From contig NZ_BOOB01000018.1 of the NCBI RefSeq assembly GCF_016863015.1, positions 1-64,000 of the forward strand: 64,000 nucleotides of DNA, read 5' to 3'. Numbering within the stretch: position 1 is the first letter of the stretch; each line of letters begins with the position of its first letter. This DNA comes from Microbispora amethystogenes (GTDB taxonomy: Bacteria > Actinomycetota > Actinomycetes > Streptosporangiales > Streptosporangiaceae). Under the pieces are notes generated by a model. It was not told the origin of the DNA. It saw only the letters and a list, made by a program, of their open reading frames with translations, and did not search any database. Below, piece after piece: positions 2,669 to 23,538 of this stretch. The position numbers and the translations under genes were made by a program.

Positions 2669-4117
<1,449 letters not shown>

Positions 4118-7192: not shown

Positions 7193-7370
7193 CATTCCAC
7201 TGATGCGTGCCGACATGCGCGCCGGCCGCAGCGGCCGGGCCGGCCGGGATGTGGCAACGGGCATAGTGCGCCTCCTCCGGAGGTTGCTTTCGGACATCGA
7301 TGTACTCTTCGACAACCGGCAAAAGCAACGTGACCTGGTCATTTCCGGGTGACGGAGGAGGCGGGAGCCC

Positions 7371-7793: not shown

Positions 7794-7807
7794 GACCTCG
7801 TCGGTCC

Positions 7808-7836
7808 ACTTCATGTGACCTCGGTTCAATTGAAGT
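7808..7836. promoter_or_regulatory. Candidate HxlR operator upstream of the flavin reductase operon
   Basis: ACTTCA at 7808-7813 is mirrored by TGAAGT at 7831-7836, and within this lies a perfect 10-bp palindrome TTCAATTGAA (7825-7834). A second half-like copy, TTCATGTGAC, starts 15 bp earlier at 7810. The AT-rich symmetry in a GC-rich setting, just downstream of a regulator gene and 190 nt before its presumed targets, suggests an operator. No binding data support it. Confidence 0.4.
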
Positions 7837-8023
7837 TACCGATCACCGGCGTGTACCCAGGTATGCGGAAGTCGCTCAGACGGCCTGTTCCAGGCCGTCG
7901 GCACACGTACGGGAGTTGATCGGTATGTCTGGCATGCCGGGACAGCCGCATGTTGCCCGCGAAGGGCACTGCCGAGGCGGCCGATCTCTCCCGTCACCCC
8001 TGTGGAGTTGAAGGGACCCTGAA

Positions 8024-8587
8024 ATGATCCGTATCGGCATCATCCTCGGCAGCACCCGCCCCGGTCGCAACGGCGAGCAGGTGGCGCAGTGGGTGCTGGA
8101 GCACGCATCCCGGCGTACGGACGCCGTATTCGAGCTGGTGGACCTGCTGGACTACCCGCTCCCGCATCTGGACGAGCCCATGCCGCCGGCCTATGGGCAG
8201 TACAAGAACGAGCACACCAAGACGTGGGCCGCCAAGATCGCCTCTTTCGACGGCTTCGTCATGGTGACGCCCGAATACAACCACTCCACCTCGGGTGTGC
8301 TGAAGAACGCCATCGACTATCTGTACGCCGAGTGGAACCACAAGGCCTTCGGCATCGTGTCCTACGGGAGCGTCGGCGGCGCCCGGGCGGCGGAGCACCT
8401 GCGGCTGATCGCCGGCGAGCTCAAGCTCGCCGACGTGCGCACCAACGTCGCCCTGTCCCTGTTCACCGACTTCCACGACTTCAGCAAGCTCGCAGCCGGT
8501 GAGCGCCAGGCGGCGGCCCTCACGACCATGCTCGACGAGGTCGTCGCCTGGAGCCGTGCCCTGGCCCCGCTGCGCCAGGCGGCCTGA
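8024..8587 (+). CDS. NADPH-dependent FMN reductase (flavodoxin-like)
   Basis: 187 residues of flavodoxin fold: phosphate loop GSTRPGRNG, then [19 protein letters not shown], the flavin-binding and dimer motif typical of NADPH:FMN reductases, azoreductases and quinone reductases. The cytoplasmic enzyme would supply reduced FMN or reduce quinones directly. The neighbouring luciferase-like monooxygenase needs reduced flavin, so the two probably form a two-component monooxygenase. The upstream HxlR gene and palindrome suggest substrate or redox induction. Confidence 0.8.
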
Positions 8588-8674
8588 CCCCGAGCCGGCC
8601 GGGGCCGCCCCGCACGCCCCGGCCGGCGAGGCGGCCCCCGCGCCCCACACCTCACCTTGCGAGCAGGAGGAACC

Positions 8675-9739
8675 ATGACCGTCGGCAGGATCGAACACCC
8701 ACGCTTCGAGCTGGGGCTCAACTCGTTCGGGGAGGTGGCGACGGACGGCGGGCGCGTGCTCGAGGACGCCGAGACCGTGCGCCTGCTCGTGGAGGAGGCC
8801 CGGCTGGCCGAGGCGGTGGGGCTGGACGTCTTCAGCGTGGGAGAGCACTACCGGGAGGGGCACAACGACTCCGCGACCCCGGTGCTGCTCGCCGCGATCG
8901 CCACCGCCACCCGGCGCATCGGGCTCGGCACGTCCGTGACCGTGTTGAGCACGAACGACCCGGTCCGGCTGTACCAGGAGTTCTCCACCCTCGACGCGGT
9001 GTCCGGCGGCCGGGCCCGGATCGTGCTGGGCCGCGCCTCCGCGACGGAGTCGTTCCCGCTGTTCGGTTACGACCTGGCCGACTACGAGCGGCTGTTCGAG
9101 GAGAAACTCGACCTCTTCCTGCGGCTCGAACGCGAGGAACAGGTGACCTGGTCCGGGACGGTGCGTCCGCCGCTCACGGGGCAGCGGCTGCACCCCCGCA
9201 TGCGGCCGGGCGGCATCCCCACCTGGATCGGCGTGGGCGGCAGCCCGGACTCCGTGGTGCGCGCCGCCCGTCACGGTCTGCCCCTCATGATGGCCGTCAT
9301 CGGCGGACGGCCCCAGCGTTTCGCCAGGAACGTCCAGTTGTACCTCACAGCGCTGGAGCGCTTCGGTCATCCCGAGCTGCCGATCGGGCAGCACTCGCTC
9401 GGCCTCGTCGCCGACAGCGACGAAGAGGCCGTCGAGACGTGGTGGCGGTACTGGCGGCCCGTCGTCGAGGATCTCGCGGCCGAGCGCGGCTTCTACGCGC
9501 CCGATCGGGAGCGGTACGAAGCCGAGGTCGAGGACGGCGCGCTCTTCGTGGGATCGCCCGAGACGGTCGCCCGCAAGATCGTCAGGGTGGCCCGCGATCT
9601 CCGCCTGAGCCGTTTCGATCTCAAGTACGACATCACGCACCTTCCTCGCGACGCCCGTGCTCGCACGATCGAGCTGCTGGGTCGCGAGGTCGCCCCGCGC
9701 GTACGCGAGCTGCTCGCGGCCGACACGGTCCACGCGTGA
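8675..9739 (+). CDS. LLM-class flavin-dependent oxidoreductase (luciferase-like monooxygenase)
   Basis: 354 residues with a TIM-barrel luciferase fold. The start [20 protein letters not shown] is followed by [38 protein letters not shown], and the C-terminal [10 protein letters not shown] motif common to this class. It uses FMNH2 or F420H2 to oxygenate or reduce organic substrates. AGGAGG stands directly before the ATG at 8675. It is 87 nt downstream of the FMN reductase and 23 nt upstream of a F420/NADP-binding protein, so FMNH2 and F420H2 are both possible cofactors. Confidence 0.8.
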
Positions 9740-9762
9740 CCCATCGACGACTTGGAGCGACC

Positions 9763-10479
9763 ATGAAACCAGGCGACGTCCTTACCATCGGCATCCTCGG
9801 CGCCGGCAAGGTCGGCACCGTCCTGGCCCGCCTCGCTGTGGCGGCCGGCTACCGCGTCCTGATAGCGGGCTCCGGGGAGGCCGCGCGCATCTCTCTCATC
9901 GTCGAGGTCGTCACGCCCGGAGCGGCCGCGGTGACCGCGGTGGAGGCCGCGTCCGGGGCGGATGTCGTGGTGCTGGCCCTGCCCCTCGGCAAACATCGCA
10001 ACGTTCCCGCCGAAGCGCTGCGGGGCAAGCTGGTGCTCGACGCGATGAACTACTGGCAGGACGTGGACGGGGTCCGGGACGACCTCACCGACCCGCGCAC
10101 ATCCTCCAGCGAGATCGTCCAGGCGTTCCTGCCGCACGCGCGGGTCGTCAAGGCCTTCAACCACATGGGCTACCACGACCTGGAAGAGAGCGCCCGTCCC
10201 GCCGGCGCTCCGGGCCGCCGCGCGATCGCCGTCGCCGGCGACGACCCGGAGGACGTCGAGGTCGTCGCCTCGATCGTGAACAGGCTCGGCTTCGAGCCGG
10301 TGATCGCCGGCCCGCTCGCCGAGGGCGTCCGCATGGAGCCGGGCACGGAGCCGTTCGGCGCGAACGTGGACGCGACCGAGCTGGGCGCCATGCTCGATCG
10401 TTTCCCCGAGTCGCGGCGCGGTCGCGAGGTGCTCCGCGCACGAGGCGGAGTGACGTCATCGTCCTGCCCGGCGCTCTGA
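9763..10479 (+). CDS. NADP-binding protein related to F420H2:NADP oxidoreductase
   Basis: 238 residues. The N-terminal Rossmann motif [21 protein letters not shown], the region [14 protein letters not shown] and the late [13 protein letters not shown] segment match the coenzyme-F420-dependent NADP oxidoreductase (FNO) and related NAD(P)-binding proteins. Such enzymes move hydride between F420 and NADP. It is the third gene of the HxlR-flavin group. A GGAGCG lies before the ATG. Some members are plain NADP reductases without F420, and sequence alone does not decide. Confidence 0.75.
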
Positions 10480-10521
10480 TCCTGCAAGGCAGTGGATGCC
10501 CGTCCGGTGGCCCGGTGATGC

Positions 10522-10537
10522 GGGGGCGTCAGCCCCC
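10522..10537. terminator. Bidirectional hairpin between converging genes
   Basis: GGGGGC (10522-10527) and GCCCCC (10532-10537) flank loop GTCA in the 49-nt gap between the F420/NADP-like gene and the reverse-strand SnoaL-like gene. The reverse gene's stop codon falls inside the stem. It could stop transcription from both sides. Confidence 0.4.
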
Positions 10538-10894
10538 AGCGGCGACCCGGGAGACGTGGTACTGAAGGATGCGCCAGCCGTTGTCGTCACGGCGCAGGAC
10601 GAGCGACATGTGCACCTTCGCCTCCCACCCCGTCGGATCGCTGAACGTGACGTCGGCGAAGCCGCCGGCGACTCGCTCACCGACGGTGTAGGTGTGCAGG
10701 ACGGTCACCTCGGCGCGCCGGTCGTCCGGCACTGCCTCGTAGTACGCCCGTACGGCGTCCTGTCCGGCCACGACCGCCGGCCCGAACCCCTGGAAGAGCG
10801 CGTCCTCGGTGAACAGTTCCGCCATCGCGCCGGGCCGGTGGCCGTCGAAGGCGGCCTTCCAGCGGCCGAGGACGTCGTGCATCGGATGGCTCAT
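10529..10894 (-). CDS. SnoaL-like (NTF2 fold, DUF4440-type) protein
   Basis: 121 residues of a cone-shaped NTF2-like fold: MHDVLGRWKAAFDGHRPGAM near the N-terminus, LFTEDALFQGFGP, and the late VLRRDDNGWRILQYHVS strand. Such small pocket proteins act as polyketide cyclases, isomerases or hydrolases, or are non-catalytic. GGAGG precedes the ATG. It is the last gene of the long reverse-strand catabolic run, so a role in that pathway is likely though the reaction is unknown. Confidence 0.7.
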   Translation of the reverse strand: MSHPMHDVLGRWKAAFDGHRPGAMAELFTEDALFQGFGPAVVAGQDAVRAYYEAVPDDRRAEVTVLHTYTVGERVAGGFADVTFSDPTGWEAKVHMSLVLRRDDNGWRILQYHVSRVAAGG

Positions 10895-10935
10895 CGCCTT
10901 GCTTTCCTCCTTCGTTCGGTGAGCGGAGTCACGGC

Positions 10936-11967
10936 TCAGAGGTGAGATGCGAGCCGTCGCAGGATCCGGACGGCGGGTCCGGGGGTGGCATGGTGGTGGC
11001 CGGTGCCGGCCCACAGGTTGATCCGCTCCGGATCCCGGGCGGCTGTCGCGGCCCGGCGCAATGGGCTGGTCAGGTGGTGCAGTGCGGGATAGCCGAAGGG
11101 CGCGAGATCGCCGTAGCGGTCGATGAATCGGTTGGGCAGGGCCCGTGCGGGCCTGCCGGTGAAGGCCCTGGTGACCACCGTTCCCCGGCTGGCCGCGCCC
11201 GCCAGCGCCTCCTTGTGGGCGAGCGACGCCCCCGACTCGTCGGCACGTAGCAGAACGGTGCCGACCATGGCCGCCGCGGCACCGGACCGCAGCGCCTGGA
11301 CCATGTCGGCGGGGGTGGCCAGCCCGCCCGCACCTATGAGAGGCAGGGACACGCTGGCCGCCACCTCGCCCAGCAACCAGGGGAGCGGCACGTCGGCGGG
11401 GCTCCGCCGGGGCGTGAACGTGCCCGAGTGGCCGCCCGCGGCCGAGGCCTGCACGATCAGCATGTCGGCCCCGGCCTCGGCGGCCTGAAGAGCCTCCGCG
11501 GGTGAGGTGACGGTCTGGATGACGAGTGTGCCGGCGGCGCGCAGCGACCTGACGACCGCCGGGTGCGGAACGGCGAAGGTGAAGCTGACGACGGGAACCG
11601 GACGGGACAGCAACAGCTCGATCTTGTCGGACCAGTGGTCGTCGTCCTCGACGGCCTCCGCGGAGAGGAGGTCGAGGCCGTATGCCCGGCCCTCGGGGGC
11701 GATCGCGCGGGCGTAGCGCCGGAACTCCGCCGGATCGACCGGCAGCGGGTTCGGTGCGAAGAGGTTCACCCCGAACGGGACGCCGCCGGCGCGTACCTGG
11801 TCGATCTGCTCGGCCAGCGCGCCGGCGTCCTTGTACCCGCCGGCCAGGAAGCCCATGCCACCCGCCCGCGCCGCCGCGATGACCAAGGCGGGTGTGCTCG
11901 GCCCGCCGGCCATCGGCGCGGCCAGGACGGGGGCGCTCACCCCGAGGGCGGTCAGTGCCGCGTTCAC
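10936..11967 (-). CDS. Nitronate monooxygenase (NPD/2-nitropropane dioxygenase family)
   Basis: 343 residues. A TIM barrel with FMN contacts: VLAAPMAGGPSTPALVIAAA, AGADMLIVQASAAGGHSG (with the conserved catalytic-type His), PLIGAGGLATPADMVQALRSGAAAAMVGTVLL. The class oxidises alkyl nitronates such as propionate 3-nitronate, or acts as an FMN-dependent quinone or enoyl reductase. The GTG start at 11967 is five bases past the stop of the upstream SDR, implying translational coupling. In this context it may oxidise a pathway intermediate. Confidence 0.75.
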   Translation of the reverse strand: MNAALTALGVSAPVLAAPMAGGPSTPALVIAAARAGGMGFLAGGYKDAGALAEQIDQVRAGGVPFGVNLFAPNPLPVDPAEFRRYARAIAPEGRAYGLDLLSAEAVEDDDHWSDKIELLLSRPVPVVSFTFAVPHPAVVRSLRAAGTLVIQTVTSPAEALQAAEAGADMLIVQASAAGGHSGTFTPRRSPADVPLPWLLGEVAASVSLPLIGAGGLATPADMVQALRSGAAAAMVGTVLLRADESGASLAHKEALAGAASRGTVVTRAFTGRPARALPNRFIDRYGDLAPFGYPALHHLTSPLRRAATAARDPERINLWAGTGHHHATPGPAVRILRRLASHL

Positions 11968-11972
11968 AGGAG

Positions 11973-12686
11973 TCAGTGCCCTGCGGTCTGGCCGCCGTCG
12001 ACGGGCAGGATCGCGCCGGTGACGAAGGGGGCGGTCTCCAGGTAGAGCACCGCGTCGGTGATGTCGCCGATCTCGCCCATGCGACCCATCGGATGCAGTG
12101 CGGCCAGTGCCTCGTGGTGCTCCTCGGGATGCATGGGAGTCTTGATCGTGCCCAGGGCCACCGCGTTCGCGCGGATGCCGCGGGTGGCGTACTCGATGGC
12201 CAGCGCCTTGGTGGCGGCCTGCAGCCCGCCCTTGGACAATGAGGCCAGCACGGAGGGCACGGCCGAGTTGGGGTGCTCGACCAGGCTGGTCGTTATCTGC
12301 ACGAGGTGCCCGCCACCCTGCCGCAGCATCTGCTCGATCGCGAGCTGGGTGATGCGGAAGAAGCCGCTGACGTTCACGCCCATCACCGCGTCGTAGTCGT
12401 CCTGGGTGAAGTCGGTGAACGGCTTGGCGATGAAGATCCCCGCGTTGTTGACGAGCGTGTCGATGCGGCCGAACCGTTCCACGCCGGCCGCGATGACCTG
12501 TTCGGCGGTGGCGCGGTCGGAGATGTCCCCCTGGACGGTCAGGACCTCGGGGTCCTGCGACGGGGCGATGCCGCGTGAGGTGGCGACGACGGCGTAGCCC
12601 AGTTTGCGGTAACCGGTGACGAGCCCGGCTCCGATGCCCTGCGACGCGCCGGTGATGACGGCGACCTTCCGGCCCTGGTTGCTCAT
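11973..12686 (-). CDS. SDR-fold protein lacking the catalytic tyrosine
   Basis: 237 residues with the SDR fold: TGASQGIGAG, GDISD, LVNNAGIF, and a C-terminal VTGAILPVDGGQTAGH typical of FabG-like members. The catalytic Tyr-x-x-x-Lys segment instead reads VLASLSKGG, so Ala stands where Tyr should be. The enzyme may therefore be a non-classical reductase, use another residue, or have a binding role. It is followed with a five-base gap by the nitronate monooxygenase. Confidence 0.75.
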   Translation of the reverse strand: MSNQGRKVAVITGASQGIGAGLVTGYRKLGYAVVATSRGIAPSQDPEVLTVQGDISDRATAEQVIAAGVERFGRIDTLVNNAGIFIAKPFTDFTQDDYDAVMGVNVSGFFRITQLAIEQMLRQGGGHLVQITTSLVEHPNSAVPSVLASLSKGGLQAATKALAIEYATRGIRANAVALGTIKTPMHPEEHHEALAALHPMGRMGEIGDITDAVLYLETAPFVTGAILPVDGGQTAGH

Positions 12687-12716
12687 GCTGGCCCCTTCTC
12701 TGATCGGCGCGATGGT

Positions 12717-13739
12717 TCAGGCGGTCTTGGCGAGACGGTCGGCGTCGATGACGGCGCGCGCGAAGCCCCGCGGATCCTCCTGGGGAACGTTGTGCCCGAC
12801 ATCGAGCACCCGGTGGTCGTAGGCGCCGGTGAACTTGGCGCGGTAGGCCGACCCGTCTCCCGCCGGGGTGAACGGGTCGTACCTGCCGTCGATGGTGATC
12901 GTGGGTACGGAGACGGCCGGGGCCTGCTGCAGGACGCGTTCGAGTGCGGTGTACCGGGGCTCGCTCGGCTTCAGGCCCAATCGCCAACGGTAGTTGCCGA
13001 TGACGATGGAGACGTAGTCGGGGTTGTCGAACGCGGCCGCGGTGCGATCGTAGGTCTCGGTGGAGAAGTCCCACGTCGGGGAGTTGAACTTCCAGACGAA
13101 CAGGCCGAGGTCGTACCGGTACCGGGTCAGGCCTGCCACGCCCCGCTCGGTGGTGAAGTAGTACTGGTACCACCAGGCGTTCTCCGCCATCGGCGCCAGT
13201 GGCTTGAGGTTGGCGGCCAGGTTGGTGATCAGGTAGCCGGTGACCGACACCAGCGCCCTGCACCGGTGCGGCCACAGGGCGGCGATGATGTCGCCGGTCC
13301 GCGACCCCCAGTCATAGCCGGCCAGGATGGGCTCGCGGATGCGCAGGGCGTCCATCAGGGCGATGACGTCGAGCGCGAAGGCGGCCTGGTCGACATCGCG
13401 CGGTGTGTCGGCGGACAGGAAGGTGGTCGTGCCGTATCCCCTGAAATAGGGCACGATCACCCGGTAGCCCGCCGCCGCGAGCAGCGGCGCCACCTCGGCA
13501 TAGCTGTGGATGTCGTAGGGGAAGCCGTGCATGAGAATCACCGGGCGGCCGTCCGCTGGTCCGGCCTCGACGTACCCGACGTTCAACACGCCGGCCTTGA
13601 TCTGTTTCACCGGGCCGAAGGACCCGCTGGTCCCAGCCGCGGTACTGCTCTGAGGTCGTTCGACGCGGCCGAGCTGAGCGAGCGCCGCGGTTCCCGCGGC
13701 CATGCTCAGGAAGCGCCGTCGATCTGGCGTGAAGTCCAT
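12717..13739 (-). CDS. Tat-exported alpha/beta hydrolase with aspartate nucleophile (epoxide hydrolase/dehalogenase-like)
   Basis: 340 residues. The N-terminus carries a twin-arginine signal (DRRRFLSMAAGTAAL). The hydrolase domain shows the oxyanion motif HGFP, then nucleophile elbow AGYDWGSR with Asp in the nucleophile position, acid-loop DGRYDPFTP and histidine in DVGHNVPQED. Asp nucleophiles are typical of epoxide hydrolases and haloalkane dehalogenases rather than esterases. Export by Tat suggests a folded enzyme working outside the membrane. It is one of two Tat-exported hydrolases in this operon. Confidence 0.75.
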   Translation of the reverse strand: MDFTPDRRRFLSMAAGTAALAQLGRVERPQSSTAAGTSGSFGPVKQIKAGVLNVGYVEAGPADGRPVILMHGFPYDIHSYAEVAPLLAAAGYRVIVPYFRGYGTTTFLSADTPRDVDQAAFALDVIALMDALRIREPILAGYDWGSRTGDIIAALWPHRCRALVSVTGYLITNLAANLKPLAPMAENAWWYQYYFTTERGVAGLTRYRYDLGLFVWKFNSPTWDFSTETYDRTAAAFDNPDYVSIVIGNYRWRLGLKPSEPRYTALERVLQQAPAVSVPTITIDGRYDPFTPAGDGSAYRAKFTGAYDHRVLDVGHNVPQEDPRGFARAVIDADRLAKTA

Positions 13740-13788
13740 CAGTGATCTCCTTGGTCGTGTTCGCGGTGTCCGGCCGTACCAGGCGGGG

Positions 13789-13820
13789 TGCCGCCCTCGT
13801 GTCGCGCCACGAGGGCGGCA
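13789..13820 (-). terminator. Hairpin between MBL and hydrolase genes
   Basis: A perfect 13-bp stem (TGCCGCCCTCGTG at 13789-13801, complement 13808-13820, six-base loop) lies past the stop of the MBL gene at 13851. It may attenuate rather than end the transcript, since the next gene is in the same direction. Confidence 0.5.
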
Positions 13821-13850
13821 TCGTGCGGTGCCTCAGGCTCGTGCGGTGCT

Positions 13851-14843
13851 TCAGGCCTTGGTGCCGAACGGGCCGAGTGAGTTGAGGTCCAGCCGCAGGG
13901 ACTCCGCCATCGCCCAGGCGTTGGGCAGGGTGAACACGTCCGCGCCGCCGAGGCGGTCCCGCCAGCGCGGGACGAGCTCGTCGGCGGTCCGCGCCGCCAC
14001 CGCGTCGAGGTAGGCGCGGAAGACGGCCCAGGCGTTGCCGGTGTCGACCGGCGCCATGATCTCGCGGAGATCCACGCTGGACAGGGCGGCTTCGGCGGTG
14101 GTGCGCAGGTCGGTCATGTACTCCAGCTGGACTCGTACGTCTTCGGGCGTTCCCGGACGGGTGACATGGCCGCCGACCAGCAGGTCGAAGTCGTACGTGA
14201 GGACCTGGTCGTGCAGCGCGATGTACCCGGGCACGTTCGCCGAAAGCGCCAGGTTGGAGAACGGCACCCAGCCGGGGAAGATGACGTCGACCAGCATCAG
14301 CACCCGCTGGTTCGCCAGGTGGATGAGGCTGTTTCCCTCGCTGTGGTTGGGGCCGGGGTAGTCCAGGCGCACGGTGTGGTCACCGGCCTCGATGGTCAGG
14401 GTGTCGTCGAAGACCTCCGTGGGCACCGGGCGGTCGGGATCGGCGAGCGACCTCAGCCGCTGGGCGACGATGCTGTGCCCGTAGCGGGGAACGTCGCCGG
14501 GGTAGATCGACATGGCGCCGACGTGGTCGGAGTGCTCGTGACTGTAGATCACGTGCGTGATCGGCCTGCTCGTCACGCGCTTGATCGCGCGCAGGATGTC
14601 GTGGCCGAGGGTCGGGGGCGCGTCCACCGCGATGACCCCCTCGTCGTGGACGACGAACATGTTCTGGTACTGGCCGTCGCTGAGCCAGAAGACGCCGTCG
14701 GCGATCTCGTCGAGGATGTAGCCGGTGTCGGGGACCTGCGGTCCCTTCGCGATCTCGGGCACCGGGGCGGTCGGAAGCTCCCTGCGTCGTCTCGCTTCCG
14801 CGGAGAAGCCGGGCGAACCGGTGACGTGGGTGGTTGTCGGCAT
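13851..14843 (-). CDS. Metallo-beta-lactamase-fold hydrolase
   Basis: 330 residues of MBL fold with the metal motif YSHEHSDHVG, downstream metal ligands around PGPNHSEGNS, LVDVIFPG and GGHVTRPG. The family covers hydrolases of esters, thioesters and lactones. The second ATG (14843) is preferred because GGAG lies six bases before it; the upstream ATG at 14855 sits too close to its GCAGG. The start is 17 nt from the end of the epoxide hydrolase gene, in the same direction. A lactone or thioester intermediate is a plausible substrate in this operon. Confidence 0.8.
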   Translation of the reverse strand: MPTTTHVTGSPGFSAEARRRRELPTAPVPEIAKGPQVPDTGYILDEIADGVFWLSDGQYQNMFVVHDEGVIAVDAPPTLGHDILRAIKRVTSRPITHVIYSHEHSDHVGAMSIYPGDVPRYGHSIVAQRLRSLADPDRPVPTEVFDDTLTIEAGDHTVRLDYPGPNHSEGNSLIHLANQRVLMLVDVIFPGWVPFSNLALSANVPGYIALHDQVLTYDFDLLVGGHVTRPGTPEDVRVQLEYMTDLRTTAEAALSSVDLREIMAPVDTGNAWAVFRAYLDAVAARTADELVPRWRDRLGGADVFTLPNAWAMAESLRLDLNSLGPFGTKA

Positions 14844-14860
14844 GTGGTTCTCCATCCTGC

Positions 14861-16165
14861 TTAGCGGAGCGATCTGAAGGCGGCCCGGATCTCGGTGCTG
14901 AACAGCTCTGGCTCCTCCCATGCGGCGAAGTGGCCGCCCTTGTCGACCTTGTTGAAGTGAATGAGCCGGTGGTAGGCGCGTTCGGTCCAGCTGCGCGGGG
15001 CTTGGTAGATCTCACCGGGGAAGACCGTCACGGCCGCGGGCAGGGAGATGTCCACGGCGTTGAAGTTGTTGGCGTTGTTCTCCCAGTAGAGCTGCGCGGA
15101 GGAGATCGCACTGTTGGTGACCCAGTAGAGCGTGATGTCGTCGAGCATCTCGTCCCTGGTGAGCGACCGCTCGGGCACGCCGCCGCTGTAGGTCCACTCG
15201 GCGAACTTGTCGTACATCCACGCGGCCAGGCCGACGGGTGAGTCCGTCAGCCCGTATCCCACGGTCTGCGGGCGGGTCACCATCATGGACGAGTAGCCGG
15301 ACTTCCTCTTGTAGAAGGTGTCGAGCGAGTCGAAGGCGGCTTTCTCGTCGGGGGACAGTCCCGCCGGAGCGGAGTCGCCCGCGGCGAGGATCCTGGCGAT
15401 CTCCGGTGGTACGGTCGCGGGCATGTTGACGTGGATGCCGAGCAGGCCCTGCGGACGCTGGGCGGCCATGCGGTCGGAGATCACCGCGCCCCAGTCGCCG
15501 CCCTGGGACACGTACCGCTGGTAGCCCAGCCGCTTCATCAGCACGTCCCAGGCGCGCCCGATGCGGTCGGGGCCCCAGCCGGTGCCCTGCGGCTTGCCCG
15601 AGAAGCCGTAACCGGGCATCGAGGGCAGCACCAGGTGGAAGGCGTCCTCCGCACGCCCGCCATGGGCGGTCGGATCGGTGAGCGGGCCGATGATCTTCAG
15701 CAGCTCCAGGACGGAGCCCGGCCAGCCGTGGGTGATGATCAGAGGGAGGGCGTTCGCGTGCCGGGAGCGGATGTGCGCGAACTGGATGTCCAGCCCATCG
15801 ATCTCGGTCACGAACTGAGGTATGGCGTTCAGCTTGGCCTCGACCTCGCGCCAGTCGTAATCGGTGGCCCAGTAGCGGACGAGCTCCCGCAGCCGGGCCA
15901 GCTGCACGCCCTGGGACTGATCCGAGACCGTTTCCCTGGCAGGCCACCGGGTCTCGGCGAGGCGTCGGCGGAGATCGACGAGAGTCTTCCTGGGCACGCT
16001 GATACGGAAGGGACGGATCGCGTCCCGTCCTGCCGGACCGGCGGTGGCCGCCTGGGCGGGGAGCGGCGCGTGAACGCTGGATGCCGCCGCCGCGACAACC
16101 GCCGCGCCGGCCGAGGTGGCGAGAAAGCCGCGGCGGGTGAGGGCCGGCCGTCCTTCTTCTGGCAT
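14861..16165 (-). CDS. Tat-exported epoxide hydrolase (EHN plus alpha/beta hydrolase)
   Basis: 434 residues. Twin-arginine signal (LTRRGFLATSAGAAVVAAAA) is followed by an EHN N-terminal domain (IRPFRISVPRKTLVDLRRRLAETRWP) and a catalytic domain with HGWPGS, GGDWGAV (Asp nucleophile) and late His in DKGGHFAAWEEPELF. This is the microsomal-type epoxide hydrolase family, which opens epoxides to diols. AAGGAG precedes the ATG by seven bases. Together with the enoyl-CoA hydratase upstream and the SDR downstream it suggests breakdown of an epoxidised or cyclic substrate. Confidence 0.85.
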   Translation of the reverse strand: MPEEGRPALTRRGFLATSAGAAVVAAAASSVHAPLPAQAATAGPAGRDAIRPFRISVPRKTLVDLRRRLAETRWPARETVSDQSQGVQLARLRELVRYWATDYDWREVEAKLNAIPQFVTEIDGLDIQFAHIRSRHANALPLIITHGWPGSVLELLKIIGPLTDPTAHGGRAEDAFHLVLPSMPGYGFSGKPQGTGWGPDRIGRAWDVLMKRLGYQRYVSQGGDWGAVISDRMAAQRPQGLLGIHVNMPATVPPEIARILAAGDSAPAGLSPDEKAAFDSLDTFYKRKSGYSSMMVTRPQTVGYGLTDSPVGLAAWMYDKFAEWTYSGGVPERSLTRDEMLDDITLYWVTNSAISSAQLYWENNANNFNAVDISLPAAVTVFPGEIYQAPRSWTERAYHRLIHFNKVDKGGHFAAWEEPELFSTEIRAAFRSLR

Positions 16166-16354
16166 GATCATTCTCCTTCTGCCGGAACACATGTGGTCGT
16201 TTGTCGGCACGGGCGGCCGCCCTCGCGTTCGTGGAGTCCTCAGAGGCGGCCTTGACCGGGGAGGGGAGCGCAGGGCGGTAGGGGGGAGCGGCCGATGTGC
16301 CGTTCCCACGTGGCGTCGCGTGGATTGAGCGGCTCCCTCTGCCGCCCGATATAT

Positions 16355-17200
16355 CTACTTCGGGCTGCTGAGGGCTTCCTCGCGCAGCCGCGCGATGGTG
16401 GCGCCGAGTTCGAGCTCGACCTCGCCGGGCCGCTGAAGACCCCGCCGGAAAAGGTCCTGCACCAGGGCGGCGTTCTCCTGCCGCCCCGATGTGGCGAAGA
16501 ACGCCGCCAGGCCGGGCTCGAACTCGGCGTCTTCCGGCAGCGAGGCCACGTCAACAAGGTGCTTGATGCCGGCGACGGCGACCTTGTCGAAGGTGGCGAT
16601 CCGCCGCGCGAACCGGTCGACGACCTCGTCGAGCTCGATGTCCGGCACGACCCGGTTGACGTAGCCGTACTCGGCGGCCAGCGCCGCCGGGACGTCGTCG
16701 CCGCCGAGAACGATCTCCAGCGCGCGGCCGCGGCCGACGAGCCGGGCCAGCCGCGCCATGGCCCCGCCGCCCGGCACCGAGCCGAGGCCGACCTCGAACT
16801 GCCCGAGAACCGCCCGCTCCGAGGCGAAACGGATGTCGGTGGCGAGGACGAACTCGCTGCCGGCTCCCCGTGCCCGTCCCCGGATCACCGAGATCGTGGC
16901 CGCGGGCACCCGGCTGAGCCGTACGAGACTGTCGAGGTAGGGGTGCAACCCGGTCGGACCGGGCGACATGGCGGCGACCCGGGCCCTGTCGGACAGCAGG
17001 TCCCAGTGCGCCATGAAGTAGTCGGGATTGCCGCTGCGGAAGACGACCACGGTCAGGGCGGGCGCCGCCTCGATGCGGTCGACGAGCGCGGAGAGCTGCT
17101 GGACGCTGTCCGGGTCGAACAGGTTCACCGGCCCGTTGGTGAAGGTCACCTGCCAGTACGAGGGCGAGACCTCGTCGACGTGGAACTGCTCTGCGGCCAT
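16355..17200 (-). CDS. Enoyl-CoA hydratase/isomerase family protein
   Basis: 281 residues of crotonase fold. The oxyanion-hole region reads FRSGNPDYFMAHWDLL and the second loop is RGRARGAGSEFVLATDIRFA, the place of the usual GGG and catalytic Glu loops. Substrate class (hydratase, isomerase or decarboxylase) is open. AAAGGA lies before the ATG. It is the first gene of the seven-gene reverse-strand catabolic run and lies immediately downstream of the two LAL regulators. Confidence 0.8.
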   Translation of the reverse strand: MAAEQFHVDEVSPSYWQVTFTNGPVNLFDPDSVQQLSALVDRIEAAPALTVVVFRSGNPDYFMAHWDLLSDRARVAAMSPGPTGLHPYLDSLVRLSRVPAATISVIRGRARGAGSEFVLATDIRFASERAVLGQFEVGLGSVPGGGAMARLARLVGRGRALEIVLGGDDVPAALAAEYGYVNRVVPDIELDEVVDRFARRIATFDKVAVAGIKHLVDVASLPEDAEFEPGLAAFFATSGRQENAALVQDLFRRGLQRPGEVELELGATIARLREEALSSPK

Positions 17201-17408
17201 GACTGTCCTTTCGCAGGGGGTCCGGGTCGGCCACCGCCTGGGCGCCTTCCGCGGCGCGCCGTGGCCGGCACGGATCGGCGCCGGCTCGATCACAGTCCCA
17301 TGCGGGCGGCCCGGTCTTCCCCAGGGGAACTCCCTGGTCGTCCCTGGTCCCGTGGTCCCGCGCGTCCCCCGGGGTACCCCAGGGAGCCGGCGGCTCGCCC
17401 TGTTCGGA

Positions 17409-20183
17409 CTATCGCTCCGACGTGGGCTCGAACTCGTCCCGGGGCAGGGCGTCGCGGAGCTGCCTGCGGGAGGTGATGAGCAACTTGCCGTAGATGTTGC
17501 GCAGGTGCCACTCGACCGTACGAGGGCTGAGGAAGAGCCGCGTGCCGATCTCGGGGTTGGAGAAGCCGTCCCGCGCCAGCAGCGCGATCTGCCGTTCCTG
17601 CGCCGTCAGAGCCTCACCCGACGAGGGCTCGACGGTGCGCTTGCGGACGGTCTCCCCCGTGGCGAGCAACTCGCGGCGGGCCCGCTCGGCGAACGCCTCC
17701 ATCCCGATCGACACGAACATCCCGTACGCGGTGCGCAGGCGGTCCCGTGCCTCGGCACGCCGGCTCTCCCGGCGCAGCCACTCGCCGTACAGGAGGTGGG
17801 CACGGGCCAGTTCGGGGCGCAACCCCGCGCTGCTCAGACGTTCGACGGCCTCGCGGTAGAGGTCCTCGGTATCCGGTCCGTCGACGACCAGGGCCCGGGT
17901 GCGTGCCTCCAGACCTCTGGCGAAGTCGGTGCTGAACGGCCGGGTCGCCTCGGCCAGCCGTTCGAAGGCGTCGCGGGCGAGGTCGGCCTCACCGGCCCGG
18001 CTGGCGGCCTCGGCGAGCTCGGGCAGCATCCAGGTGGACAGCCAGGGCTCGGAGATGTGCGGGGTGGACTGGGCGGCGTGCACCGCTTCGGGATAACGGG
18101 CCAGGCCGTTGTACAGGACCGCAGCCGCCCACTGCGCACCCGTGATACCCATGCCGAATCCGGACGCGGCAGAGGCCTCGATGGTGGCGGAGACCATTGC
18201 GACGGTCTCGCTCTCCCGGCCTCGCAGCGACAGCAACCGCAACGCGGGATAGGGCGGCAGCGGGTTGCCCGTCGCGGCCGCGATGGTGTCGCCCTCGGCG
18301 ATGACGGCGGCGGCGCCCTCGAAATCGCCGGCCCAGGACAGGGCGTAAGCCAGAGTGGACAGGTGATAGGGCAGTTCCCGGAGCGCGCCGGCGTCGCGGA
18401 CGACCTGGACCTGCCGGGTGTAGATCGCCAGCATGGCTTCGTGGTCCCAGATGGCGGCGCTCGCCCCGGTGGCGACCCACCCCCAGCGCAGCACGTCCGC
18501 GGCGGGGATGTCGATCAGCTCCTTCGCCGCCTGCCGCAGCGTCGCCGCCGCGGACGCCCGGCCCTCCGTGACGAGGAGCGCGAAGCCGTCGAGGAGGAGG
18601 TCCAGCGGGCCGGGTCTGTCCGGCGACGAAAGATTCCGTACGGAACGCGAGACCGCCATGAGGGCCTCCTGGTCGCCGACGCTGACGGCCATGCCCCAGG
18701 CGGTCAGGTAGGTCTCCCGCGCGAGCCGCGGGTTCCCTGGTTCGAGCCGATCGGCGGCGTCCAGCAGCAAGGCGATCGCCTCGGTGCCGCCGCCGGAGGC
18801 GAAGGCGATCTGACCACGCAGCACCCCGGCACGCCCGTCCTGGAAACCGGTCAGCGAAGCGACGCTGACGCTGCTCAGCAACCTGCTCACGTCGTCGAGT
18901 TGTCCGGAGAGGAGACTCGCCTCGGCGGCCGCCAGCATCCTGTCGGCGCGCTGCGCGGAGTCCGCGGTCAGCGCGGCGGCCCGCTGCAGGAACGCGGCTG
19001 CCGCGGCCACCCCGCCACGCGCCTGCGCCCGGTTGGCAGAGCGTTCCAGTTCAGCGGCGACGGCCTCGTCAGGTCCGGCGGTGGCTGAGGCGAGGTGCCA
19101 GGCGCGACGATCCGGTGCCTCCTGCGGGTCGGTGACCTCCGCCAGCGCCAGATGCACCGCCCTGCGGTCCTCGGGCCTGGCCGCCCGGTACGCCGCCGAG
19201 CGTACGAGCGGGTGCCGGAACGTCACGCGGACGTCGAACGACAGCAGCCCGTCCGTGCCGTCGATCAGCGCCGTCGTGAGCGTGACTCCCAGCATCTCCG
19301 CGGCGCGGCGCACCAGGTCCGGATCCCCGACCGGTTCGGCGGCGGCGACCAGCAGCAGAAGCGCGGCCTGCTCGGGCAGTCCCTCGACACGGTTCAGGAA
19401 GCTCTGCTCGATCCGGCCCGGCAGGCTGTCGGCGCCCAGCAGGCCGAGCCCGCCGGCCATCTGGGTCGGGGTCAGCCCGCGGGGCAGTTCGAGCAGGGCG
19501 AGCGGGTTGCCCTGGGTCTCTGCGAGGATGCGATCGCGGATGTGCCGGTCGAGCGGAGCGTGTGTGACGGAGCTCAGCAGGGCGCGGGCCTCGGCGTCGG
19601 CCAGCCCGGTGACCTCCAGCTCCGCCAGCCCGCGGAGTTCCGGGCCCGGCTGCCGGGTGCCGAACAGCATGCCGATGCACTCCGCCAGCAGCCGCCGGGC
19701 GACGAAGCCGAGGATCTGCGCCGAGGCCAGGTCCAGCCACTGGACGTCGTCGATCAGGCAGAGCACGGGCTGCTTCTCCGACGCGTCCGACAGCAGGCTC
19801 AGCACCGCCAGGCCGACCATGAAGTGGTCCGGCGCGGGTCCCTCACGCAGCCTGAAGACCGTCTCGAGCGCGTCGCGCTGCGGCGCGGGAAGGCTGCTGA
19901 GCCTACCGAGCAACGGGGCGCAGAGCTGGTGCAGCGAGGCGAACGCCAGCTCCATCTCGGACTCGACTCCGGCGGCACGCAACACACGCGCGTCGGCCGC
20001 CGATGTCGCCGCGTAACCCAGCAGCGCGGACTTCCCGACTCCTGGAGCGCCTCGCACCACGAGCGCCCGGCTCTCGCCGATTCGCACAGAGGCCAGCAGC
20101 TCGTCAAGCCGGGCGCACTCGTCCTTCCGCCCGAGCAGGTCGATGTTCTCCCCGCGTCCCGCGCCATGGTGCCGCTGATCCAT
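17409..20183 (-). CDS. LAL-type LuxR transcriptional regulator with ATPase domain, copy 1
   Basis: 924 residues. An AAA/STAND ATPase at the N-terminus (Walker A RGAPGVGKSALL near residue 45, Walker B VLCLIDDVQWLD, ILAETQGNPLALLELPRG) is followed by about 500 residues of helical TPR-like repeats and a C-terminal LuxR helix-turn-helix (LTAQERQIALLARDGFSNPEIGTRL, LSPRTVEWHL). LALs bind an unknown inducer and ATP, then activate nearby operons. It shares length and layout with the next gene, so the two are tandem paralogs. The catabolic operon lies immediately downstream. Confidence 0.9.
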   Translation of the reverse strand: MDQRHHGAGRGENIDLLGRKDECARLDELLASVRIGESRALVVRGAPGVGKSALLGYAATSAADARVLRAAGVESEMELAFASLHQLCAPLLGRLSSLPAPQRDALETVFRLREGPAPDHFMVGLAVLSLLSDASEKQPVLCLIDDVQWLDLASAQILGFVARRLLAECIGMLFGTRQPGPELRGLAELEVTGLADAEARALLSSVTHAPLDRHIRDRILAETQGNPLALLELPRGLTPTQMAGGLGLLGADSLPGRIEQSFLNRVEGLPEQAALLLLVAAAEPVGDPDLVRRAAEMLGVTLTTALIDGTDGLLSFDVRVTFRHPLVRSAAYRAARPEDRRAVHLALAEVTDPQEAPDRRAWHLASATAGPDEAVAAELERSANRAQARGGVAAAAAFLQRAAALTADSAQRADRMLAAAEASLLSGQLDDVSRLLSSVSVASLTGFQDGRAGVLRGQIAFASGGGTEAIALLLDAADRLEPGNPRLARETYLTAWGMAVSVGDQEALMAVSRSVRNLSSPDRPGPLDLLLDGFALLVTEGRASAAATLRQAAKELIDIPAADVLRWGWVATGASAAIWDHEAMLAIYTRQVQVVRDAGALRELPYHLSTLAYALSWAGDFEGAAAVIAEGDTIAAATGNPLPPYPALRLLSLRGRESETVAMVSATIEASAASGFGMGITGAQWAAAVLYNGLARYPEAVHAAQSTPHISEPWLSTWMLPELAEAASRAGEADLARDAFERLAEATRPFSTDFARGLEARTRALVVDGPDTEDLYREAVERLSSAGLRPELARAHLLYGEWLRRESRRAEARDRLRTAYGMFVSIGMEAFAERARRELLATGETVRKRTVEPSSGEALTAQERQIALLARDGFSNPEIGTRLFLSPRTVEWHLRNIYGKLLITSRRQLRDALPRDEFEPTSER

Positions 20184-20209
20184 CGCCGTTGCCCCGTCTC
20201 ACCGTTGAC

Positions 20210-20232
20210 GGTCCTGTTAGCGCCAACAGACC
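20210..20232. promoter_or_regulatory. Imperfect palindrome upstream of LAL copy 1
   Basis: A near-perfect inverted repeat (GGTCCTGTT and AACAGACC halves, six-base centre) lies 27-49 bases upstream of the regulator's start. It could be a LAL operator, or a terminator for the second LAL gene. No T-run is seen. Confidence 0.35.
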
Positions 20233-20367
20233 GGAGTAATCCTGGCCTAAACCTTCGCTCGGGGAAAGATCTCGCTCGTTGATTCCGCATGCTGGGTGGC
20301 TGCACTCCACCACGTGCTCGCCGACGGCCGGTCGGCTGATCGCCCCCAGAGGCCCCGCTCGGCGGTG

Positions 20368-23142
20368 CTACGCCGATGGAAGCATGTGCCGTTCTCCGGC
20401 CATGGCCGCGTCGAGTTCCTTCCGGGAGGTGATGCCCAGCTTGCCGAAGACCTTGCGGAGATGCCATTCGACGGTGCGGGCGCTGATGAACAGCTGGGAG
20501 CCGATCTCTTGATTGGTGCGGCCGTCGCGCGCGAGCTCGGCGATGAGGGCCTCCTTGGCGGTCAGGGTGCCGACCGCGTCGACGGTACGGAGGTGTACAC
20601 GTGCGCCGGTGGCGTGCAGCTCACGCCGGGCACGTTCGGCGAACGCGGCCATCCCCATCTCCGTGAACATCTCGAAGGCGGTGCGTACGTGGCCGCGGGC
20701 GTCGGCACGACGGTCCTGGCCGTGCAGCCATTCGCCGTACAGCAGCCGGGCGCGGGCGAGCTCGGGCCGCAGCGGGGTGCGAGCGAGCCGCTCGATCGCC
20801 TCGAGGAAGAAGCCTTCGGCGATGTCGCCCTCGCTCAACAGCGCGCGGCAGCGAGCTTCCAGCCCCAACCCGAAGTCGGCGCCCCCCGCGCGGGCCGTTG
20901 CGGACAATCGAGACAAGGCATCGCGTGCGAGTTCGGTGTCGCCGGTGCGGACCGCGGCCTCGATGAGTTCGGGCAGCGCCCACAGCGAGACGAACTGCCC
21001 GGGTGCGTCCTCACTGGACTCGGTGGCCGCGGCGAGCGCATCGTCATGCAGGCCGAGACCGTTGTAGAGGATGGCGGCCGTCCAATTCGCGTAGGCGACC
21101 GAGACGCCCTGCCCGCGCGTGGTGGCCTCGGTGATCGTTTTCTCGATCAGCGGGACGGCTTTGGTCTGATCACCCCTCATGCAAGCGAGTGCCAGGGCCG
21201 TGAGGGAGGCGAGGGGGCTGCCTGTCGCCGCGCACACCTCCTCCTCTTCGACCTTCACCAGTTCGGCCGCCGCGAAGTCGCCGCTCCACATGATCGCCGT
21301 GCCGAGCGCGGCCAACATAACCGGCAGGAGGTCCAGCGCACCCACGTCGCGGGCGGTACGGACCTGCCGTTCGAGGATTGTGCGCCAGGGATCGTAGGCC
21401 AACAGGGCGCTGGCGGTGGCCTGCGCGAACCAGCCCCACCGCAGATCGTCCTCGACGGAGATGCCGGCCGCGGTGAAATGGTCCATCACCGCCCGGAGTT
21501 TGGGCGCGGCCGCGGCGGGTCCCTGAGTGACCATCAGGGTGAGAGCGTCGAGGAGCAGATCGGCCTGTCCGGGCGGGTGGGCCGGCAGCTTGCGGGCCTG
21601 GGCGGCCTGAGATACCTCCGGCAGACCTACAGGAGTCGCCGACCGGCCGGCCAGGATGGCCGCCATCCACGCCCTCAGATAGGTGTCGCGGGCCAGTTCG
21701 GCGTCGAGGGGCTCCAACCGCTTGGCCGCCCTGAGCAGCAGCGCCGGGGCGTCACTACCCAGTCCCGACGCGAAGTTGATTTCGGCGTACAGCAAGTCGA
21801 TCCTGGCGCTCTGCAGTTCGTCGAGGGGACCGCTCTGTGCTGTCGCGAGCAGTTCCAGAGCCATGGAGAACTCGCCTGCCTGTGCGTGGGTCTGCGCTGC
21901 CGCCAGGGTGCGTTGGGCGCGGCGGGCCGGGTCCACGGTGAGCAGCGCCGAGCGCTGCAGGAACGCCGCGGCCGCCGTCAGCCCACCGCGGGACTGGGCG
22001 CGGTTGGCCGACTGCTCAAGGTCCTCCGCCACGCTCTCGTCCGGCCCCGTCGCGGCCTGGGCGAGGTGCCAGGCTCGGCGGTCGGGGTCGACGGTCCGGT
22101 CGGTGGCCTCCGCGAGGGCGAGGTGCGCCGCCCGGCGATCGTGTTCGGAGGCCGATCGGTAGGCCGCCGAGCGCAACAAGGGGTGCCGGAAACTGACCCG
22201 CGCCCCGAACTCCGCCAGCCCAGCCAGCACCAGGGCCTCGGTCTGGGTCTCGATACCGAGCCGCTTGGCGGCGCGCCACACCAGCAATGTGTCGCCTGAG
22301 GGGTCGGCCGCCGCGAGTTGCAGCAGCCGGCGCGACTCGGAGGGCAGCGCGTTCAGCTGGCGCAGGAAACTGTCCTCGATCCGCGCTGTCAACGGCGCGA
22401 CGCCTGGCAGCCCGAACCCGCCTGCCAGCTGCGTCCGAGTGAGGCCGCGCGGCAGCTCCAGGAGCGCCAGCGGGTTGCCGCGGGTCTCGGCCAAGATCTG
22501 ATCTCGCACCCGAGTGTCCAGTGGTCCGTTCAGCTCGGATTCCAGCAGGGCCCGGGCATCGGCGTCCGGCAGTCCGGTCAGATGCAGTTCTGGCAGCCCT
22601 GCCGTGTCGTCCCCGGCGACTCTGGTCGCGAACACGATGCCGACCGGATCCGCTCCCAACCTTCTGGCGACGAACCCGAGCGCGAGCGCGGAGGCGCGGT
22701 CGAGCCACTGCTGATCGTCGATCAGGCAGACCAGCGGCTGCACCTCCGCGGCCTCCGACAGGAGGCTGAGCACCGCCAGTCCCACCAGGAACCGGTCCGG
22801 CACGGAGCCTTCGGTCAGTCCGAAGGCGACTCGCAACGCCTCCCGTTGTGGCGCAGGCAGCCGATCCAGCCGGTTCAGCAAGGGAAGGCACAGCTGATGG
22901 ACGCCCGCGAACGGCAGCTCCGCCTCCGACTGGACGCCCGTCACGCGCACTACCCGGCAACTCGCCGCCTGCTCGGTCATATATTGCAGCAGCGCGGTTT
23001 TGCCCACCCCCGCGTCCCCGCGGATAACCAGAGTACGGCTCTCTCCGCCCCGAACCGAGTTGAGCAGTTCGACGAGTATCTTGCGCTCGGCCTCACGGTC
23101 GACCAGAGTGCTCCCGCGGCCCGGCCGCCGATCAGGGCTCAT
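20368..23142 (-). CDS. LAL-type LuxR transcriptional regulator with ATPase domain, copy 2
   Basis: 924 residues, exactly the length of copy 1. The layout is the same: Walker A RGDAGVGKTALL, Walker B LVCLIDDQQWLD, ILAETRGNPLALLELPRG, helical repeats, and the C-terminal LuxR HTH (LTAKEALIAELARDGRTNQEIGSQL, ISARTVEWHLRKVFGKLGI). It must have come from a tandem duplication, followed by divergence, most visible in the helical repeats. Two LALs facing one catabolic operon may sense different signals. A direct comparison of their sensor repeats would decide whether one has lost function. Confidence 0.9.
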   Translation of the reverse strand: MSPDRRPGRGSTLVDREAERKILVELLNSVRGGESRTLVIRGDAGVGKTALLQYMTEQAASCRVVRVTGVQSEAELPFAGVHQLCLPLLNRLDRLPAPQREALRVAFGLTEGSVPDRFLVGLAVLSLLSEAAEVQPLVCLIDDQQWLDRASALALGFVARRLGADPVGIVFATRVAGDDTAGLPELHLTGLPDADARALLESELNGPLDTRVRDQILAETRGNPLALLELPRGLTRTQLAGGFGLPGVAPLTARIEDSFLRQLNALPSESRRLLQLAAADPSGDTLLVWRAAKRLGIETQTEALVLAGLAEFGARVSFRHPLLRSAAYRSASEHDRRAAHLALAEATDRTVDPDRRAWHLAQAATGPDESVAEDLEQSANRAQSRGGLTAAAAFLQRSALLTVDPARRAQRTLAAAQTHAQAGEFSMALELLATAQSGPLDELQSARIDLLYAEINFASGLGSDAPALLLRAAKRLEPLDAELARDTYLRAWMAAILAGRSATPVGLPEVSQAAQARKLPAHPPGQADLLLDALTLMVTQGPAAAAPKLRAVMDHFTAAGISVEDDLRWGWFAQATASALLAYDPWRTILERQVRTARDVGALDLLPVMLAALGTAIMWSGDFAAAELVKVEEEEVCAATGSPLASLTALALACMRGDQTKAVPLIEKTITEATTRGQGVSVAYANWTAAILYNGLGLHDDALAAATESSEDAPGQFVSLWALPELIEAAVRTGDTELARDALSRLSATARAGGADFGLGLEARCRALLSEGDIAEGFFLEAIERLARTPLRPELARARLLYGEWLHGQDRRADARGHVRTAFEMFTEMGMAAFAERARRELHATGARVHLRTVDAVGTLTAKEALIAELARDGRTNQEIGSQLFISARTVEWHLRKVFGKLGITSRKELDAAMAGERHMLPSA

Positions 23143-23417
23143 CTTCAGCGGGAACCACCTGCGCCGGTCAGCGCTTGCGGACCTTGTGTTCCCGCGGCCG
23201 ACCGCGAGCGGAGCGCCGCCTTTCCGGTGCCGGGCTCGCTATGACTCCTCACACGGCCTCCCGTCCAGTCCACCGCACTGAGTTGCGAAGTCACGGGCAA
23301 CATTCGATCTTTACATGAGGAATGGCGCCCGGCAATGCCCCGGGAGTGGTTCCACTGGGAGCGGCCTCGGTTGGAAGATCCGTGCGATCCGAACCGTAGC
23401 CGCCCAACAATGCGAAT
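23143..23417. other. Non-coding stretch upstream of LAL copy 2
   Basis: About 275 bases between the LAL start and the tRNA-Pro terminator. I see no convincing gene, tRNA or strong promoter. It must contain the LAL promoter, but no -35/-10 pair stands out. Confidence 0.4.
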
Positions 23418-23444
23418 GGCCGGTTCCGATGATCGGAACCGGCC
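23418..23444 (-). terminator. Terminator of tRNA-Pro
   Basis: A perfect 11-bp inverted repeat (GGCCGGTTCCG at 23418-23428, complement 23434-23444, five-base loop ATGAT) lies 18 bases past the CCA end of the tRNA on the reverse strand. Confidence 0.7.
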
Positions 23445-23461
23445 TCGCAGCTGGTACTACC

Positions 23462-23538
23462 TGGTCGGGGTGGCGGGATTTGAACCCACGGCCTCTTCGT
23501 CCCGAACGAAGCGCGCTGCCAAGCTGCGCTACACCCCG
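23462..23538 (-). tRNA. tRNA-Pro (anticodon CGG)
   Basis: A 74-nt cloverleaf plus encoded CCA on the reverse strand. The acceptor 5' CGGGGTG pairs with 3' CACCCCG. The D-arm region is GTAGCGCAGCTTGGCAGC. The anticodon stem is CTTCG/CGAAG around loop TTCGGGA, giving anticodon CGG for codon CCG. The T arm reads GTGGGTTCAAATCCCGC with the invariant TTCAA. Discriminator A and an encoded CCA follow. No repeated tRNA 3' end or integrase gene was seen nearby, so it is not obviously an integration site in use. Confidence 0.97.

Follow-up and report, generated by a model that had tools for sequence, protein, structure and literature searches.

The window analyzed here is the whole 64,000-nucleotide stretch of DNA from the soil actinobacterium Microbispora amethystogenes (the first 64,000 bases of contig 18 in an 8.1-Mb genome), and the system in question is a group of nine genes on its minus strand in which two LuxR-family ATP-binding regulators (LALs) are followed by seven enzyme-like genes. 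The original prediction, made from the letters without database searches, had described these at 10529-23142 as a seven-gene operon behind two tandem 924-residue LALs. All nine genes were found to be present, each with a Pfam hit over the curated cutoff; NCBIfam models were also scored. Read along the minus strand from the tRNA gene upstream of the regulators, the features are as follows.

23462-23538, minus: tRNA-Pro(CGG), the conserved right border of a variable region
20368-23142, minus: LAL1, LuxR-family ATP-binding regulator, 924 amino acids; AAA_16 and GerE over cutoff
17409-20183, minus: LAL2, LuxR-family ATP-binding regulator, 924 amino acids; AAA_16 and GerE over cutoff
16355-17200, minus: ECH, crotonase; Pfam over cutoff, motifs GAGSE and GQFE
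14861-16171, minus: EH1, EHN epoxide hydrolase of putative twin-arginine translocation (Tat) type; EHN 133 bits, TRRGFL signal
13851-14843 (alternative start 14855), minus: MBL, metallo-beta-lactamase-fold hydrolase; Pfam over cutoff, HxHxDH
12717-13739, minus: HYD2, putatively Tat-type alpha/beta hydrolase; RRRFL signal, nucleophile Asp in GYDWGSR
11973-12686, minus: SDR, short-chain dehydrogenase/reductase-fold protein; Pfam over cutoff, without the classical Tyr of YxxxK
10936-11967, minus: NMO, 2-nitropropane dioxygenase/nitronate monooxygenase-like; Pfam over cutoff, GTG start selected
10529-10894, minus: SnoaL-like protein, SgcJ/EcaC subfamily TIGR02246; Pfam over cutoff

The gaps measure 184 bp (LAL1-LAL2), 208 bp (LAL2-ECH), 183 bp (ECH-EH1), 17 bp (EH1-MBL), 111 bp (MBL-HYD2), 30 bp (HYD2-SDR), 5 bp (SDR-NMO), and 41 bp (NMO-SnoaL). 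Spacing on the shared strand is thus tight from EH1 onward (5 to 111 bp) and wider before EH1 (183 to 208 bp). No terminator-like or sigma-70-like site was found by a scan, a result that says little for a GC-rich actinobacterium.

Both regulators have the marks of the LAL family, with AAA_16 and GerE matches over cutoff, a length of 924 amino acids, and GVGKT/GVGKS motifs, and are 53% identical to each other. The genome yielded 82 GerE matches, many of them within LAL-sized frames.

In the translations of both EH1 and HYD2, a twin-arginine motif at the start precedes a short hydrophobic segment, consistent with the predicted pair of Tat-exported hydrolases, and the Asp nucleophile foreseen for one of them lies in the GYDWGSR motif of HYD2. 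EH1 scored 133 bits against PF06441 (cutoff, 22.8), and its nucleophile Asp, acid, His, and two lid Tyr residues align with those of the Aspergillus niger epoxide hydrolase 1qo7; the functional roles named here are those that we take these residues to have. A common domain, nucleophile, and lid Tyr link EH1 with the EHN (microsomal-type) epoxide hydrolases 5f4z and 4i19, the juvenile hormone epoxide hydrolase 4qla, and 1qo7, but it differs from all four in its twin-arginine signal and has Glu (FPGEI) at the position of an Asp in 1qo7. HYD2 aligns across 300 residues (E value, 2e-114) with 5bov, a putative epoxide hydrolase whose own function is, to our knowledge, unproven; this kinship, the Asp nucleophile, HGFP, the His, and the acid place it among the epoxide-hydrolase-like alpha/beta hydrolases. 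The intact catalytic residues support both enzymes as being of the epoxide hydrolase type, with epoxide hydrolysis as the predicted reaction. As a haloalkane dehalogenase, HYD2 scored far below the cutoff of the model (PRK00870, 69.7 bits; cutoff, 265). Homologues of HYD2 occur as tandem pairs at four loci (L057, L058, L094, and L102), of which the three that carry organism names are from Alphaproteobacteria, and a 64% homologue is on record both for a genome of the genus (G008) and for Microbispora catharanthi (NZ_VDMA02000011).

Of the remaining enzymes, ECH has a pair of glutamates, in GAGSE and GQFE and 20 residues apart, which we take to be the hydratase-type catalytic residues; the 25 NCBIfam models listed for it all scored below cutoff. 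In MBL, both H, the D, and the last H of HxHxDH were invariant in eight of eight aligned rows, and its homologues adjoining LALs share 74 to 75% across the whole alignment. The AlphaFold model of MBL (pLDDT, 83.9) matches 8d2z, many lactamases, the chlorothalonil dehalogenase 6uxu, and SdsA1 with TM scores, by query length, of about 0.5 to 0.6, and because these matches are so broad the substrate cannot be named. Assignment to class B metallo-beta-lactamases was rejected (VarG, 74.5 bits against a cutoff of 750; subclass B1, 48.2 against 200). The SDR label was right as to the fold recognized by Pfam, but Ala replaces the Tyr of YxxxK (A-S/A-L-S/T-K) in all 10 aligned rows (the window, L047, L076, L130, L131, L137, L138, L139, L233, and L255), and because this Tyr is the catalytic one the protein may not be an ordinary dehydrogenase. 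In L131, L137, L138, and L139 an SDR gene (64 to 76%) again precedes one for a SnoaL-like protein, in L138 with a glyoxalase next; the SDR-SnoaL pair is also present in L047, and the order in L130 is SDR, a 79-amino-acid protein, and NMO. NMO scored 245 bits against PF03060 (cutoff, 28) and has an AGGH motif that aligns with 3bw2. It is thus nitronate monooxygenase-like, and nitronate oxidation is predicted.

Recurrence of these genes was examined around 80 named homologues of HYD2, taken with at most 10 kb of flanking sequence to either side. EH1 at 62% or higher was found at four of these loci (L023, L024, L081, and L086) and ECH at 72% at one (L024), while 13 held a LAL-like gene (counted from 900 matched bases up, shorter matches being dropped), in ten cases within about 1.5 kb of HYD2. 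EH1-type genes (E ≤ 1e-130) and LAL1-like genes (E ≤ 1e-200) were placed in the 48 best-ranked genomes of the HYD2 set; three EH1 rows of G498 and G499, which had been added for having EH1, and seven LAL rows of G500 were dropped, and the 96 LAL1-like genes placed are a lower bound, at most 17 candidates per genome having been scored. Seven of the 26 EH1-type genes lay within 2 kb of a LAL1-like gene against 0.10 expected, and nine within 5 kb of a LAL against 0.17 expected; the expectation assumes even placement, and the Poisson figures ignore kinship, with two Catellatospora species and one tandem EH1 pair counted separately.

All 103 LAL1-like genes, from about 50 genomes selected for carrying HYD2, gave 85 stretches that were compared with 15 other stretches from the same genomes. 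Besides the nine genes above, the following neighbors in the window were included in the counts.

9763-10479, plus: F420R, F420/NADP oxidoreductase-type protein, in a block convergent with the nine genes
8675-9739, plus: LLM, luciferase-like monooxygenase; TIGR03858 subfamily, slightly below cutoff
8024-8587, plus: FMNR, NADPH-dependent FMN reductase
7371-7793, plus: HxlR-type regulator, a neighbor outside the recurring set
about 4986-5606, minus: GLX, glyoxalase/VOC-family protein; start inferred from homologue alignment
2669-4030, minus: PNDR, FAD disulfide reductase of the MerA/Lpd type, CxxxxC
1172-2257: EEP, endonuclease/exonuclease/phosphatase-family protein, VanJ-like; VanJ teicoplanin resistance model, 535 bits against a cutoff of 700

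Among the 85 LAL neighborhoods, GLX was present in 15, EH1 and PNDR in 13 each, HYD2 in seven (a count biased upward because the genomes were chosen for HYD2), ECH in four, F420R in three, MBL and LLM in two each, and FMNR, EEP, and SDR in one each; NMO, SnoaL, and HxlR were found in none of the 85, and every window gene counted was absent from all 15 control stretches. PNDR lay within 600 bp of the LAL in 7 of its 13 cases. Clustering of the genes near LALs in 23 genomes gave, next after the LALs themselves, an alpha/beta hydrolase in 12, PNDR in 11, EH1 in 10, an SDR and an extracytoplasmic function (ECF) sigma factor in nine each, a response regulator in eight, and GLX, a major facilitator superfamily (MFS) pump, and HYD2 in seven each, so that PNDR, EH1, GLX, and HYD2 rank within the ten commonest neighbor clusters; the window proteins were included as extra labeling nodes and can join clusters. 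Genes in other loci were called with our own GC-frame caller, which may miss or overextend genes and missed NMO in the window. The interval 10529-23142 does hold the genes predicted for it, but the unit appears to be larger, because GLX and PNDR (2669-5606) recur with the set yet lie outside.

The complete seven-gene set was found in no other stretch examined, in keeping with the original view that the combination, which is LAL-linked, is unusual, and what recurs elsewhere is partial and reshuffled. Actinomadura nitritigenes (L156) has six genes within 20 kb, namely PNDR (88%, cut at the end of the stretch), GLX (89%), LAL2 (62%), HYD2 (81%), LAL1 (76%), and EH1 (67%). Streptomyces panaciradicis (L233) has LAL2 (63%), SDR (70%), GLX (84%), and PNDR (81%) in the order and on the strand of the window. 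Paractinoplanes maris (L189) has three LAL2-type LALs, FMNR (73%), MBL (76%), and EH1; Kribbella pratensis (L197) has a LAL, ECH (68%), a LAL, GLX, and EH1; and Kribbella sp. ALI-6-A has two LALs with MBL (77%) at one locus (L161) and EH1, HYD2, and ECH (72%) at another (L024). Two Kribbella stretches have an F420R homologue (77 to 78%) together with LLM and a LAL. Plasmids also carry parts of the set: a Streptomyces tendae plasmid (NZ_CP043960, L255) has ECH (70%), FMNR (71.5%), and SDR (79%) within 15 kb, with no LAL across its 18.8-kb stretch; a Rhodococcus opacus plasmid has LAL1 (50%), GLX (58%), and PNDR (39%); and another R. opacus plasmid and a Streptomyces plasmid have a LAL with no other gene of the set. 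The proposed search of other genomes therefore bore out the recurrence of parts beside LALs, but not one fixed pathway. A gene order unique here and scattered elsewhere, which the original prediction had named as speaking against it, was partly encountered, because sets elsewhere are partial and reshuffled.

The reading first offered was a single catabolic pathway dedicated to an epoxide or nitro compound and using all seven genes. The compact run on one strand favors it, as does NMO, which aligns over its full length with the 2-nitropropane dioxygenase 3bw2 and the nitronate monooxygenase 4q4k and keeps the active-site His that is Asp in entry 3bw3. Against it, the full set recurs nowhere among the stretches examined, NMO and SnoaL are absent from the LAL neighborhoods, none of the 80 named HYD2 loci gave an NMO match at the bit threshold applied, and a sister genome retains NMO without the operon; such a pathway is very unlikely in our judgment. 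A single conserved operon was rejected, as the gene set is reshuffled elsewhere. The suggested epoxide would suit the epoxide hydrolase-type enzymes, whose residues are intact. Nitro catabolism has little in its favor, and the genomic context of NMO, for all its likeness to 3bw2 and 4q4k, shows no sign of a nitro substrate.

The genes lie in a variable region that flanks a conserved tRNA-Pro. The window shares a block of tRNA-Pro, metallophosphoesterase, YqeY, and penicillin-binding protein (PBP) genes with all 14 other genomes of the genus, and the sequence directly beyond tRNA-Pro differs across these 14, past a short hairpin common to some. Only one of them (G001) has a gene of the set there, an EH1 at 79% accompanied by a glyoxalase and by what is left of a LAL C terminus; genes beside the tRNA in relatives were inspected by eye only, and 6 of the 14 stretches are short (2.9 to 8.2 kb; L104, L108, L110, L114, L115, and L116), so that absence further out is not covered in these. 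A tRNA-borne integrative element would be expected to have an integrase and, at its far border, a repeat of the tRNA end; no second copy of that end was found in the genome itself at up to 3 mismatches in 26.

The nearest sister species, G010, has a PBP at 97% identity and retains pieces of the window in order and, where larger, at 92 to 95%, namely 1-202 (86%), 651-1173, 7241-7934, 8669-10480, and 10935-12004. NMO is kept at 91%, and the rest of the operon is reduced to scraps or gone, with SDR represented by 12480-12541 and 12648-12705 and LAL1 by 23009-23067; 23339-23412 and 23405-23508, with the 3' half of the tRNA, are also present. As these scraps lie inside both genes, the ancestor of G010 had SDR and LAL1, and HYD2, MBL, EH1, ECH, and LAL2 were likely lost together with them. 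An intact tRNA-Pro lies about 103 kb beyond the second tRNA 3' half. Comparison of G010 (L128/L129) with window positions 1-23508 shows stepwise erosion of the region as a whole, with the 3' half and the intact tRNA placed as if a large element sat there.

A hot spot that gathered unrelated accessory enzymes by chance, with LALs that control other things or nothing, would fit a flank that varies across the genus and is being eroded in G010, a full set that is unique, and the occurrence of NMO and the SDR-SnoaL pair in other contexts. It fits poorly with the adjacency of EH1 and LAL far above expectation, with the six genes together in A. nitritigenes, and with the collinear LAL2-SDR-GLX-PNDR of S. 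panaciradicis, and we regard chance accumulation as unlikely.

A tree of 114 LALs was built with FastTree, which provided local support only and gave long-branch warnings. LAL1 paired with the A. nitritigenes LAL (76%) located between HYD2 and EH1, and LAL2 grouped with LALs beside GLX, SDR, FMNR, PNDR, or EH1 genes; in its 10-row clade, eight of the nine other rows, with six loci represented (L189 by three rows and L182 by two), had a listed gene no more than 6 kb away. The larger, 27-row clade holding both regulators was richer in GLX, PNDR, FMNR, or SDR than other LALs (15/25 versus 14/87; P = 3.5e-5), a P value that is optimistic, as is the one given below for the same clade, because the clade was picked after labeling and its rows are related.

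As a further explanation, the genes could serve tailoring or self-protection in a secondary-metabolite pathway, the setting in which LALs are best known; they are known from antibiotic clusters. In PMC3282765, the Streptomyces coelicolor LALs SCO0877 and SCO7173 are pleiotropic regulators of the phosphate response and actinorhodin, and LAL 7173 up-regulates cpkE, called an epoxide hydrolase there; the abstract of another paper terms CpkE a putative isomerase. The VanJ-like gene at 1172-2257 points the same way. However, there was no polyketide synthase, nonribosomal peptide synthetase, or terpene gene among the annotated proteins, the rest of the window not having been scanned for them, and the ten annotated clusters of LAL1-like neighbors consist of hydrolases, SDRs, an MFS pump, an ABC ATPase, a kinase, and regulators. 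This origin is distinctly unlikely to us. The window LALs share their architecture with SCO0877 and SCO7173, and an effect of an S. coelicolor LAL on a gene such as cpkE is a further likeness, but no local set of exported hydrolases is mentioned for those two in the text accessible. PMC3466318 surveys the LuxR proteins of Actinobacteria, and the words hydrolase and degradation are absent from its main text. PMC12294881 proved to have no bearing on the subject. No description of this gene set or of a LAL-epoxide hydrolase neighborhood was found in the open PMC literature, as far as titles, abstracts, and passages were covered, in agreement with the earlier remark that no described pathway with the set was known; subscription papers were not covered, so this is weak evidence of absence.

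We give about an even chance to a modular, mobile accessory island of LAL-governed detoxifying or catabolic enzymes, exported and cytosolic, rather than one fixed pathway. Several results weigh against this reading. The other 67 of the 80 HYD2 loci lack a LAL, and with these as a second control the enrichment was moderate: GLX and PNDR occurred in two each, EH1 in three, ECH in one, and MBL in none, giving Fisher P values of 0.004 for GLX, 0.013 for PNDR, 0.035 for EH1, and 0.38 for ECH. NMO and SnoaL, in none of the 85 LAL neighborhoods, and SDR, in one, belong barely or not at all to the recurring set. The 27-row clade was not richer in EH1, HYD2, ECH, or MBL (8/25 versus 19/87; P = 0.30), and no shared LAL binding site stood above shuffles when gapped 4-/5-mer pairs were searched in 15 intergenic stretches.

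MalT and AlkS are MalT-like activators in which an inducer-sensing STAND ATPase adjoins the genes that it switches. The window set would work like their operons, with a STAND ATPase beside putative targets, but the enzymes are others and the control is predicted. The two MalT-like regulators and their retinues, presumably co-transcribed, would have been joined downstream of tRNA-Pro. Perhaps, as the tree and the partial sets only suggest, these were two modules, each with its own LAL: EH1, HYD2, and ECH with LAL1, and SDR, GLX, PNDR, and possibly FMNR with LAL2, MBL occurring with either. A small lipophilic environmental compound may bind the sensor part of a LAL, which, by analogy with MalT, would assemble with ATP and activate the minus-strand genes. 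EH1 and HYD2 would then leave through Tat and open epoxides or a similar electrophile outside the cell, MBL might open a lactone or other ester-like bond, and ECH, PNDR, GLX, and the flavin enzymes would process what enters.

A broader version is possible but doubtful: Actinobacteria may hold a widespread and so far undescribed class of LAL-switched outer-defense modules, in which the LAL senses a reactive lipophilic compound of a competitor or host plant, exported epoxide hydrolases disarm it outside, and GLX, the disulfide reductase, and flavin enzymes form a cytosolic second line. Such modules would travel and recombine, and the window would be a fusion of two.

LuxR-type regulators are numerous in this genome, and most LALs have no known role; their repeated close link to putatively exported epoxide hydrolases suggests a concrete function that can be tested and the kind of inducers that might be tried. 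The set is also a source of candidate secreted epoxide hydrolases. As separate observations on LAL loci, an ECF sigma factor gene lay within 250 bp of, or overlapped, the LAL in 8 of 11 cases (e.g., L159), and contig 37 of the window's own genome (L017) has a second LAL locus that carries hydrolases, an SDR, and an MBL (48%) whose frame is broken in two.

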